From: Rhizoclosmatium globosum
Taxonomy: Eukaryota > Chytridiomycota > Chytridiomycetes > Chytridiales > Chytriomycetaceae
Reading direction: 5' to 3'
NCBI GenBank assembly: GCA_002104985.1
Contig: MCGO01000018.1
Location: 248,001-312,000 of the forward strand
DNA length: 64,000 bases
Made by a program: the position numbers and the translations under genes. Position 1 is the first letter of the stretch. Each line of letters starts with the position of its first letter. The notes below the pieces were generated by a model. It was given only the letters and a program-made list of their open reading frames with translations. It did no database searches and was not told the origin of the DNA. Shown piece by piece: positions 18,402 to 22,114 of the stretch.

Positions 18402-20660
18402 ATGAGTGACGCCGCTTCTCTCGCTGCAGTCTTTTCTCTCCTGGAGCAAATCAAGCAAAGGGCCGCTGCTACCGCCGAACGCCTCGCAGGAATTGAGTCC
18501 TCACAATCCTCACTCGTATCCGATGTTCGTCGCCTAAAATCAATCGCCGGCGGGTCATTAAACCCCACAACAATCAACAACCTCCCAAACGAACTCATTC
18601 TCCTAATCTTCCGCCATATCCCGCGTCCAACCGTATTTAAACTAAACCGTTTGTCAAAGCGATTTAAATCGTGGCTCTCTACACCCCAGTTTGCCCTTCT
18701 CAGCAGTCAATCGTATTCTTTCCCGTCTGCGATTCTCACGTTCCGAGACTGGCTCAGAATGCCACGCAACTTTCGTAAAGCGTATGCAGAGACGCCGGGT
18801 CATGAAGGTACTCTTCTCAAGGCTAGCGGTATGGGTGAAAGAGTTGGGGTCAGAAAGGATGCCATTCCTTCGGAAGTTGCATGCTTCCCGAACGTTTCGG
18901 AGCTCCGATTGTCGAAAATGCAACTTGTCGGCTCGATTCCTGTTGAAATTGGGACCATGACGTTGTTGGTTCGTTTGAACTTGTCTGGTAACCAGTTGGT
19001 TGGTCCGATTCCTTCGTCGTTGTGGAAACTTGTAAATTTGCAGGTACTCAGCTTGAACTCTAACTTATTGACTGGTACTATTTCTCCTGATATCAAGTTG
19101 TTGAAACGGCTCACTGTTGTACAACTTGGTGGCAATGCCTTCAATGGTGCTATTCCATCTACTATCACCCAGCTTTCTCATCTCACCCATCTCTCTCTTC
19201 ACGACAACAACTTGACTGGGATTATTCCACTCGATATCTCGCGTCTCGCAAAGTTGAAGGAGTTGCTTCTCCATAACAACCGTTTCTCGGGCTCCGTTCC
19301 CACGTCCGCAGTTACTAAAATGTATTCCTTGGAAGGATTGTACTTGTCTGGAAACAGCTTTATTGGGATTGTACCCTCTGTTGCCTGCCTGAACTTGAAA
19401 CGCCTCGCATTGGATCCAGCAAATCGACCTGATTTGATGACAGAGCGAATGTTCAAGATGTTGAGTCAACTGATTCCGTCGTATACTATAACTGGAAACG
19501 ATATTATTGCGTCTCAAACGGCTTCTCTTGTGACTGACTATCTTCATCACTTGGAAAACAATATTCTGCGGCCACCCACCAATCCTCCGCTTCCGCCACC
19601 TGTCGCTCCTTCTGCATGGGACACGCTTCCGCGTTCATCTGGGCCAATTTATCCGAGCTATAGCCACAATGTGTACTCCGATTCTGGGCCCAGTCACACT
19701 GTTACTCCCCCAACCCCTATGCGATACACTCCTCTCGCTCCGAGTTATGCTCCTACAAGTCCAAGCTACAGTCCTACGAGCCCGAGTTACAGTCCCACGA
19801 GCCCGAGCTATAGCCCAACGAGTCCGAGCTACAATCCAACGAGTCTGAGTTACACTTATCCCGGCGCGTCGACTTCAACCTCTGGACCCAGTTATAGTCC
19901 AACGCGACTTGGAAGTCCAAGGAGATACGAAACAAGAGATGATTTCACGTCTTTTGTTTACGACCAGTCGTCGACTTCAGACAATAAGCCCGTCAGTAGT
20001 CCTAAAAGTCCCTGTTATAGTCCAACGAGTCCGACTTACAGTCCAAACTATGATGATATCACGTCGAACGATGAGCCAAGCTATAGTCCTGTGAGTCCAA
20101 GTTACAGTCCGACTTTGAATAGTTCCATACACGACGACGGCAATGCAAATACCGTGAATAACGAGCCAAAATCCTCGAATGATGAGCCAACTTATAGTCT
20201 TACGAGTCCCAGTAATACCCCTCCATCTGATTTTGGTCCCATCCATAAGGTATCTGCCTCGAACAATGAACCACGTTATAGTCTCACGAGTCCGACTTAT
20301 CATCCTACGGATTACGATTCAGATACCGATGTGATGGATTCGACGAGTGGTCCAAGATTTTGTCCAGAGTCGCCAAGTCATGAGTATCGTGGTGCCGGTG
20401 GTTCTCTGCCTCGGTTTGCAGAGTCGTCCAGTAGCGCGTTGAATGATGGGAATGTTGGAAGCGGTGCAGGATCTGAGGTTGTTGGAGGCGGAAGTGAAGT
20501 TAGTCATGTTGGTAGTGTTGATGATAGTGATCGTGTGGTTAATATGGGTAGCGGAAGTGTGAGTAGTGGAATTGATGGCGGTAGTGGTAATGTTGTTGGC
20601 GGTATTGATTCTAAAGAGGAGAATCTCGAGTGTGGAGTTAGCGCGTCCTTGTTGGGATGA
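18402..20660 (+). CDS. F-box/LRR protein with an RNA polymerase II CTD-like tail
   Basis: Single-exon gene of 752 residues. Residues 1-48 are a coiled coil (EQIKQRAAATAERLAG). Residues about 58-95 are an F-box (INNLPNELILLIFRHIPRP, then LNRLSKRFKSWL). About seven plant-type LRRs follow from about 165 to 335 (LNLSGNQLVGPIPSSL, LSLHDNNLTGIIP). The C-terminal half is low complexity. From about residue 445 it carries RNA polymerase II CTD-like heptads, five in a row with YSPTSPS-type sequence and then scattered copies, before a Gly/Ser/Val-rich end. F-box proteins bind Skp1 in SCF ubiquitin ligases, with LRRs usually binding the substrate; that role is inferred. The gene is followed 155 bp downstream by a related F-box/LRR gene on the same strand. 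I know of no described family with this combination. Confidence 0.85.
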   Translation: MSDAASLAAVFSLLEQIKQRAAATAERLAGIESSQSSLVSDVRRLKSIAGGSLNPTTINNLPNELILLIFRHIPRPTVFKLNRLSKRFKSWLSTPQFALLSSQSYSFPSAILTFRDWLRMPRNFRKAYAETPGHEGTLLKASGMGERVGVRKDAIPSEVACFPNVSELRLSKMQLVGSIPVEIGTMTLLVRLNLSGNQLVGPIPSSLWKLVNLQVLSLNSNLLTGTISPDIKLLKRLTVVQLGGNAFNGAIPSTITQLSHLTHLSLHDNNLTGIIPLDISRLAKLKELLLHNNRFSGSVPTSAVTKMYSLEGLYLSGNSFIGIVPSVACLNLKRLALDPANRPDLMTERMFKMLSQLIPSYTITGNDIIASQTASLVTDYLHHLENNILRPPTNPPLPPPVAPSAWDTLPRSSGPIYPSYSHNVYSDSGPSHTVTPPTPMRYTPLAPSYAPTSPSYSPTSPSYSPTSPSYSPTSPSYNPTSLSYTYPGASTSTSGPSYSPTRLGSPRRYETRDDFTSFVYDQSSTSDNKPVSSPKSPCYSPTSPTYSPNYDDITSNDEPSYSPVSPSYSPTLNSSIHDDGNANTVNNEPKSSNDEPTYSLTSPSNTPPSDFGPIHKVSASNNEPRYSLTSPTYHPTDYDSDTDVMDSTSGPRFCPESPSHEYRGAGGSLPRFAESSSSALNDGNVGSGAGSEVVGGGSEVSHVGSVDDSDRVVNMGSGSVSSGIDGGSGNVVGGIDSKEENLECGVSASLLG
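19730..20310 (+). repeat. CTD-like heptad repeats within the F-box/LRR gene
   Basis: Positions 19738-19858 encode consecutive heptads APTSPSY, SPTSPSY (three times), NPTSLSY. More copies occur at about 19890-19910 (YSPTRLG), 20012-20048 (YSPTSPTYSP), 20080-20118 (YSPVSPSYSP), 20190-20220 (YSLTSPSNTP) and 20276-20310 (YSLTSPTYHP). The DNA copies differ in third positions (CCTACG, CCCACG, CCAACG), so they look selected as protein and not recently copied. Confidence 0.9.
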
Positions 20661-20815
20661 GTAGTACGGAGAGCAAGGGATGGGTACATGCAGATTGTGG
20701 AGCTGTAAGAGTCTTTTTCCGTTTACGATATGTTATAATGAATACTTTTTTGGAGTATGTTATTATTATTCATCGATTCCTCTCGTTTCTGTCAACAACC
20801 AATATTCAGGGGAAG

Positions 20816-22114
20816 ATGACACGGACCACCAGCCCCTCCAACGCACGCGCACCCGCCACCTTGGATTCGATCATGACTCTTCTTGAGACAATGAACAAGC
20901 GACTCGCGGCCGTTGAACAAACGACAACCGAGCTCAAGGCCACGTTTTCCGCATCGCACAAACTGATGCACAGACAACTTCAGCAACTCACCAACGAAAC
21001 GCAGAAGTTCTTTCGCGTGTTTTCTGATCTTCCAATTGAACTTGTTGGACTGATCCTGGCCTGGCTGCCCCCGCGGAACTCAATCAAACTGCGCAGAGTC
21101 AACAAGGCCTTCCTCGCGGCCATCTCGTCAAGGCACTTTGCCGTCGCGAACCTGGCTCGCTTTCAACAGATCGCTCGCACTCATGATCTCTTCACATGGG
21201 TCAGATGGCCCGCAAACTTCCAGGATGCCTACGCTTCGGTAGGCCCTGCAAAGGACTGGCCCGACATTGTCATCAACAACCACTCATTTGCTGCTCTAAA
21301 GAAGCTTCCTCCGTTGCATTTGTTCAAAAATGCACGTGCCGTGAAGTTTAATCACAATATGTGTCAAGGGCGGATCATGCCAGAGTTGGGGACCTTGGCA
21401 AATCTCAGGATTCTTTCGTTTTCAACAAATAGATTGACGGGTTTGATTCCTGAAGAATTGTTCCATGCTACTAATTTGGAGGTCCTGTGTCTGGACCACA
21501 ATCGGTTTGATGGACCGGTCAGTCCCCGAATCTCTGCGCTCAAGAAGTTGAAAACTTTGAATTTGCAGCAATGTGAATTATTTGGGCCGATTTTGGAGCA
21601 TTTGACGGAAATGGAACACTTGGAAGTTCTCAATTTGGCGAACAATAGGTTTACGGGTACTGTTCCGGACGATCTTCTGAATCTGAACAACTTGCGTGAG
21701 TTGTCTCTTCAGTCCAACATGTTTTCGGGAGAGTTACTGATTGAAGACGGTTGGGAAAATATGCGGAGCCTGGATATAAGCGCCAATCGTTTCTCGGGCC
21801 CCGTCCCTGATTTCAGTAACATGTCTCAGCTGGAAAGACTTCACTTGACGGATAACTCGTTCGAAGGGAGTCTCGATTTGGATTTGGATAGTGTACCGAA
21901 TCTCAATCATCTATGTGTCGACGAAAGGAATCATCCGGAGGATCCAAGTGACATGATGGCATCCTTATTGAAAGGCAATTTCGAAGAAGATGACGAGGAC
22001 GAGGACGACGATATGTTTTACCACCCCCACCTATTTGGAGGTTTCCCCATGATGCCGTTCTTCAATCACATGGTGGATGATTCTGACGAGGAAAGCGACG
22101 ATTACCCATATTGA
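20816..22114 (+). CDS. F-box/LRR protein with acidic C-terminus
   Basis: Single exon, 432 residues. The start at 20816 (MTRTTSPSNA) is preferred over the longer frame from 20657, which overlaps the previous stop and adds an unrelated hydrophobic leader. Residues about 18-65 form a coiled coil (TLLETMNKRLAAVEQTTTEL). The F-box follows (FSDLPIELVGLILAWLPP, RRVNKAFLAA). About eight LRRs then match the plant-type consensus (NRLTGLIPEELF, NNRFTGTVPDDL, NRFSGPVPDF). The end is very acidic (EEDDEDEDDDM) and then aromatic. Likely an SCF substrate-recognition subunit by family knowledge; target unknown. It is a tandem paralogue of the preceding gene but lacks the CTD-like tail. Confidence 0.85.
   Translation: MTRTTSPSNARAPATLDSIMTLLETMNKRLAAVEQTTTELKATFSASHKLMHRQLQQLTNETQKFFRVFSDLPIELVGLILAWLPPRNSIKLRRVNKAFLAAISSRHFAVANLARFQQIARTHDLFTWVRWPANFQDAYASVGPAKDWPDIVINNHSFAALKKLPPLHLFKNARAVKFNHNMCQGRIMPELGTLANLRILSFSTNRLTGLIPEELFHATNLEVLCLDHNRFDGPVSPRISALKKLKTLNLQQCELFGPILEHLTEMEHLEVLNLANNRFTGTVPDDLLNLNNLRELSLQSNMFSGELLIEDGWENMRSLDISANRFSGPVPDFSNMSQLERLHLTDNSFEGSLDLDLDSVPNLNHLCVDERNHPEDPSDMMASLLKGNFEEDDEDEDDDMFYHPHLFGGFPMMPFFNHMVDDSDEESDDYPY

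Follow-up and report, generated by a model that had tools for sequence, protein, structure and literature searches.

A gene of the chytrid Rhizoclosmatium globosum encodes a protein in which an F-box and plant-type leucine-rich repeats (LRRs) are followed by a disordered tail carrying ten heptads that resemble the C-terminal domain (CTD) repeat of RNA polymerase II. With a probability of about 0.42, we tentatively read this protein as an F-box/LRR substrate receptor whose tail mimics the CTD and connects an SCF ligase with the readers or kinases of the CTD. The gene lies in the window, by which we mean the whole 64,000-nucleotide stretch of contig MCGO01000018.1 that was analyzed, and its features are collected in Table 1 with those of its tandem neighbor and of two other heptad-bearing loci.

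Table 1. Features of the window gene, its neighbor and two other loci with CTD-like heptads. Plain coordinates are window positions; those of the last two rows are given on other contigs of the genome, with the corresponding locus coordinates in brackets.
Feature	Coordinates	Strand	Remarks
F-box / plant-type LRR / CTD-like-tail gene, 752 aa	18402..20660	+	single open frame, ATG to TGA
Predicted N-terminal helix, residues 4-48	18411..18545	+	AlphaFold model
F-box domain, residues 58-97	18573..18692	+	Pfam PF00646; helices in model
Plant-type LRRs, about residues 165-325	18894..19376	+	Pfam, sequence and fold matches, model
Disordered tail, residues 391-752	19572..20657	+	pLDDT <50 nearly throughout
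Degenerate heptad YTPLAPS (4/7), residues 442-448	19725..19745	+	in register with core; read from sequence
Core of five consecutive heptads, residues 449-483	19746..19850	+	YAPTSPS, 3 x YSPTSPS, YNPTSLS
Scattered heptad YSPTSPT, residues 539-545	20016..20036	+	
NDEP-S-YSPVSPS-YSPTLNS, residues 556-574	20067..20123	+	acidic motif (Glu three before Tyr) preceding two heptads
NDEPT-YSLTSPS, residues 593-604	20178..20213	+	
NNEPR-YSLTSPT, residues 621-632	20262..20297	+	
Tandem F-box/LRR paralogue, 485 aa as listed	20657..22114	+	acidic end, without heptads
Ankyrin protein	C257:337964-339391 (L060:2965-4392)	-	second copy on C11 (L061:3094-4461, -)
1094-codon frame	C366:732609-735890 (L058:1610-4891)	+	second copy on C16 (L064:3338-6619, -)

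The frame of the gene comprises 752 codons without an internal stop. The F-box that a preliminary description had seen in the letters was confirmed by a Pfam scan, in which PF00646 matched residues 58-97 at 24.0 bits (cut-off 20.5) and the related F-box-like family PF12937 remained under its own threshold (19.7 bits, cut-off 24.3). The claim of plant-type LRRs also held: LRR_1, LRR_8 and LRR_4 scored well over cut-off and LRR_14 under it, and the best matches of this part, by sequence and by fold, were plant LRR receptors. With repeats over cut-off and a solenoid in the model, the protein has the kind of repeat domain through which an F-box protein would bind its substrate. F-box/LRR substrate receptors of the FBXL/Skp2 and TIR1 type have an N-terminal F-box followed by LRRs, and the window protein has the same order, but its LRRs belong to the class found in plant receptor kinases. 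The Rpb1 repeat family PF05001 stayed under threshold (16.4 bits, cut-off 20.3), and no RPB1 core domain was found in the window protein at E-values up to 0.1.

An AlphaFold model based on 22 sequences had a mean pLDDT of 55.2, the values being mostly 87-98 in the blocks of the LRR solenoid, 70-81 for the F-box (in blocks of residues 61-100) and nearly all under 50 in the tail. As the tail is predicted to be disordered, it should be accessible, and the ten heptads would thus form a CTD-like motif in an exposed region. Of the 50 Foldseek rows listed for this model, most were ectodomains of plant LRR receptors and a few were other plant proteins (PGIP, an ice-binding protein), which is what the LRR part would lead one to expect; none was an F-box structure.

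The searched genome (56.9 Mb in 420 contigs, many of its loci being found twice, as near-identical copies on separate contigs) encodes matches to both the Skp1 domain and the CID domain. At a cut-off of E 0.001 it also yields no fewer than 149 F-box-like matches, a count that includes haplotype pairs. Directly downstream of the gene is the tandem paralogue, whose true start may instead lie at an inner ATG near 20816. Among 86 further matches to the window protein, 29 loci were examined, including haplotype pairs and this tandem neighbor, and none had a heptad at 5/7 or better. No second copy of the window gene was found in the genome, and the one closely matching second contig, C328, ends at its own base 19678, opposite window position 13.5 kb. 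Because this contig stops short of the gene, the lack of an allele says nothing.

We counted as a heptad any seven residues with at least five matches to YSPTSPS. By this measure the window protein has ten, three of them exact, of which five are consecutive (starting at residues 449, 456, 463, 470 and 477) and five scattered (539, 561, 568, 598 and 626), in agreement with the initial count of five consecutive and about five further copies; in 5000 shuffles of residues 391-752 the number averaged 0.42 and never exceeded 5. It had also been proposed that these are repeats of the protein, with differing synonymous codons, and the five core units bear this out, as their third codon positions vary at 7/7 sites, the first at 1/7 and the second at 2/7. 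The ratio pN/pS was 0.11 among the core units, 0.25 among all ten and 0.47 among the outer five, values that are lowered by the choice of units for likeness to a protein consensus, least so for the consecutive core. Selection was assessed from the repeat units and the orthologous proteins.

The core units share an ancestry in DNA as well, since their codons are uniform (AGY for 13 of 13 serines, ACG for four of five threonines), unlike those of the F-box/LRR part, where 37 of 44 serines are TCN, and those of the RPB1 heptads (C257 copy), where TCN accounts for 56 of 85 serines and the 27 threonines include 13 ACT and two ACG. The difference in serine codons from RPB1 suggests a home-grown tail, whose most likely origin is an expansion of its own 21-base unit and not a recent capture of the RPB1 CTD. 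Like the RPB1 CTD, the tail is C-terminal, disordered and built on the YSPTSPS consensus, but it differs in its serine codons and in the lack of a polymerase domain. Counted in the same way, the genome's RPB1 has 29 heptads (26 exact), beside which the ten of the window tail make up a short and impure copy. The second copy of RPB1, on C407 (L063:2805-3796, +), has its CTD split over two frames, through a frameshift or an assembly error.

The resemblance of the heptads to the CTD would also be expected if the tail came from RPB1 itself, by gene fusion or by an error in joining the assembly. We regard this as highly improbable, as the codon contrast just described disfavors a recent RPB1 fusion, the Pfam scan returned no RPB1 core domain, and the same junction is found in proteins from two other genomes. 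The possibility that the repeats are generic low-complexity sequence, rich in proline and serine, had been named as grounds for dismissing the tail. It has been checked in part, and the composition shuffles and the four heptad queries of the genome presented below speak against it, the latter disfavoring a generic low-complexity tail.

The tail is conserved in orthologues, a point that the preliminary description had left to be checked. Two other Rhizoclosmatium genomes keep the heptads, namely those of Rhizoclosmatium hyalinum (P0001, incomplete at its start) and Rhizoclosmatium sp. JEL0117 (P0002). Overall, their proteins have 96% and 93% identity with the window protein, and over the tail 96% and 87%, respectively. 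No further orthologue was present among the best 120 of 1312 matches, for which 7991 candidates had been scored. Across the three genomes, whose sequences are closely related, the sequences agree at 366 of the 380 sites of residues 11-390 and at 300 of the 362 sites of the tail. The core (residues 449-483) is identical at 35/35 sites, compared with 240/292 of the non-heptad sites of the tail. The scattered heptads are invariant at only 25/35 sites, against 178/202 non-heptad sites of residues 391-662, and are thus less conserved than their surroundings (Fisher p 0.016), which is the opposite direction to constraint. This low value is due to a nine-residue deletion in P0002, which removed one heptad and part of another and leaves nine scattered-heptad sites gapped in the alignment. 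Constraint is thus apparent in these sequences for the core and not for the scattered copies.

A quite possible alternative is that the tail is a substrate of proline-directed kinases and regulates the stability or dimerization of the F-box protein itself, its likeness to YSPTSPS being convergent, a product of the expanding 21-base unit, and no CTD reader being involved. The tail contains 24 SP/TP sites, the uniformity of its AGY/ACG codons is a sign of repeats expanding locally, and conservation in its scattered heptads does not exceed that of the residues around them, all of which would suit such a role, as would the occurrence of CTD-like tails on many unrelated proteins, which is what convergence would give. 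However, the core is invariant in the three genomes with a pN/pS of 0.11 among its units, heptads were found at few loci of the genome, and a generic kinase tail need not retain Tyr1, Pro3, Thr4, Ser5, Pro6 and Ser7 together. The composition of the tail bears on another possibility, which we think a good deal less likely, namely that it acts as a condensate tether. The CTD takes part in polymerase II clusters, and the tail could mix with these clustered CTDs via weak CTD-CTD contacts and so concentrate the ligase at hubs of transcription without a specific reader. Its repeats are rich in tyrosine, residues 391-484 contain just two acidic and two basic residues, and the region is largely disordered, which would suit a tether; against this, there are just five tandem heptads.

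Under the CTD-mimic reading that we prefer, three of the scattered heptads may differ from the core in their need for phosphorylation. They have a glutamate three residues before the tyrosine (NDEPSYSPV, NDEPTYSLT and NNEPRYSLT), and it is kept in 9/9 cases (three motifs in three genomes). Glutamate takes this position at three of the 24 tail tyrosines, a borderline excess that was reached by 925 of 20000 shuffles of the window tail and by 744 and 1200 for the orthologues; judging by their sequences, all three may stem from duplication of a single unit. A similar arrangement is described for yeast Trf4, whose NIM is a CTD mimic with an affinity for the Nrd1 CID about 100-fold higher than that of the Ser5P-CTD, with Glu576, three residues before Tyr579, as a putative Ser5P mimic (PMC4186968). 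Binding of the Trf4 NIM and of the CTD to the Nrd1 CID is mutually exclusive, and the beta turn of both ligands uses Pro3 (PMC4186968). The S/N-P-x-x turn after the tyrosine is present in one of the three Glu-bearing copies (YSPV), while the other two read YSLT and lack Pro3. Our best candidate for a mimic that acts constitutively is the first Glu-bearing copy (residues 556-574); the core, in our reading, is a plain CTD mimic and would need phosphorylation.

Acidic and ordinary junctions were also counted more widely. In a set of 328 proteins, 210 of which had at least five heptads, regular expressions found [DE]P-x-[YF]S[PL] 11 times and the ordinary [ST]P-x-[YF]-x-P 5236 times, the set being redundant and the two patterns slightly different. 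Four of the 11 were in the two orthologues, two in P0293 and five in RPB1 proteins.

Two further yeast CTD mimics are Sen1, which carries another NIM (PMC7110113), and Mpp6 (PMC4186968, PMC7110113). The NIMs of Trf4 and Sen1 indicate that CTD mimicry by proteins other than the polymerase is a working mechanism, and by analogy with them the binding to CTD readers or kinases, or competition for them, that was first proposed for the tail is plausible. Like all three yeast proteins, the window protein is no polymerase yet bears a short CTD-like stretch in a disordered region, and like Trf4 it also has, with borderline significance, a glutamate at -3 of the tyrosine. The yeast NIMs, however, are single degenerate motifs in RNA-processing proteins, whereas the window protein, known from its sequence, has five near-canonical tandem heptads and scattered ones on an F-box/LRR protein.

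Heptads were found at few other places in the genome. Four queries were run (the CTD consensus, the tail of an ankyrin protein, the Chytriomyces protein P0325 and the window tail), with only the best candidates scored, and they recovered RPB1 (C257/C407), the window gene (C90), the ankyrin protein (C257/C11) and a 1094-codon frame (C366/C16). The CTD consensus, P0325 and window-tail queries each returned all four of these main loci. The ankyrin-tail query returned three and missed the window gene, so divergent heptad loci may have gone undetected. A weak fifth locus (C24:182.8k, E 0.0025), without a Pfam match, was returned by the CTD-consensus query only.

The ankyrin protein has ankyrin repeats over the Pfam cut-off and nine heptads in its last 102 residues, running to its end, and its two copies differ at 2/333 bases in the tail, both silent. 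Its N-terminus is F-box-like, but at 17.1 and 17.7 bits both copies are under the cut-off of 24.3, and its model (mean pLDDT 38.5, from two sequences) is too poor to use; we do not count it as an established F-box protein, and it remains a candidate. It also carries a Lys/Arg-rich stretch (LKRKN...PKKKQ), and F-box/LRR matches lie within 6 kb of its gene on the same contig. The 1094-codon frame has ten CTD-like heptads between an uncharacterized body and an uncharacterized C-terminal piece, and within its 167-codon heptad stretch the copies differ at two codons, one synonymously and one nonsynonymously. By eye it had been suspected to be a VWA protein, which was not supported on checking.

CTD-like tails outside RPB1 are also found in public proteins. 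We considered the best 120 of 468 and the best 120 of 334 matches to queries with the F-box/LRR and the F-box-like/ankyrin proteins, with bounded lengths, and 31 distinct proteins among the matches listed had no RPB1 core domain in Pfam. Seven of them are by eye RPB1 ends or fragments (P0031, P0254, P0290, P0296, P0309, P0314 and P0324). The remaining 24 were sorted by eye into about 17 families, P0248 and P0285 by Pfam only and the others by sequence, and include the two orthologues, five Mytilus MATH proteins, two VWA proteins, a cullin fragment of Papaver (P0276) and an ankyrin protein with a CTD-like tail from the wasp Eretmocerus (P0311). The Mytilus MATH proteins with CTD-like arrays (P0089, P0243, P0247, P0248 and P0285) come from five species, and four of the five are labeled RPB1-like or USP7 by a source. 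The RPB1-like labels of P0089, P0243 and P0253 are probably due to the heptads. The VWA proteins, P0280 and P0307, are 51% identical and both have CTD-like tails. Two suspicions raised by eye, an F-box in P0256 and a PRANC-like end in P0311, had no Pfam support. No relatives of P0256 or P0280 were found in viral contigs, nor any of P0256 in phage records.

These examples suggest, from sequence, that CTD-like tails have been acquired more than once, in mussels, poppy, a wasp, chytrids and others. The MATH, VWA, cullin-fragment and ankyrin proteins and P0325, a Chytriomyces protein with a CTD-like heptad array, share with the window protein such an array on an otherwise unrelated protein. They differ in their partner domains, and by Pfam an F-box with LRRs was present only in the two orthologues among the matches listed. 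It is rather unlikely, in our view, that cullin-ligase adaptors as a class have repeatedly gained CTD tails which bait CTD readers or kinases, so that the ligase is steered by the transcription cycle. The examples would be the F-box/LRR protein and the ankyrin protein with its sub-threshold F-box here, and the MATH and cullin-fragment proteins elsewhere. The frequency of ubiquitin-linked partners among CTD-tailed proteins is suggestive only, as the lists, drawn with F-box queries, are not an unbiased sample.

The preliminary description knew of no family with this layout. For the combination of F-box, LRRs and CTD-like tail this stands, as literature searches found no description of it; for CTD-like tails as such it does not, with two more in this genome and others in public proteins. 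The layout joins two known kinds of protein, the F-box receptor and the CTD mimic, in a combination that we met only in this gene and its orthologues. Another CTD mimic is reportedly PIE-1 of C. elegans, a zinc-finger germline repressor said to have a single CTD-like motif that competes for a CTD kinase. It resembles the window protein in bearing a CTD-like motif on a non-polymerase protein and differs in being a zinc-finger repressor with one motif. PIE-1 is named as a transcription inhibitor in PMC11094015.

If the window protein is indeed a substrate receptor with a CTD mimic, its F-box would dock on Skp1-cullin and its LRRs would choose the substrate. The heptads, which probably arose locally from the 21-base unit rather than by fusion with RPB1, would be phosphorylated by proline-directed CTD kinases and would bind CID-type CTD readers or the kinases themselves, and the Glu-bearing copies might bind CTD readers even without phosphorylation. 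The SCF ligase would thereby be placed at the transcription machinery, or made responsive to it, and either the ligase would ubiquitylate CTD-bound factors or the mimic would rival polymerase II in binding them. Studies of the CTD code usually treat it as something that belongs to polymerase II. If our reading is true, a ligase adaptor with a CTD of its own, in which glutamate is partly fixed at the place of Ser5, would couple protein destruction to transcription, and it would offer a natural and separable means of testing which features of a heptad are required by CTD readers.
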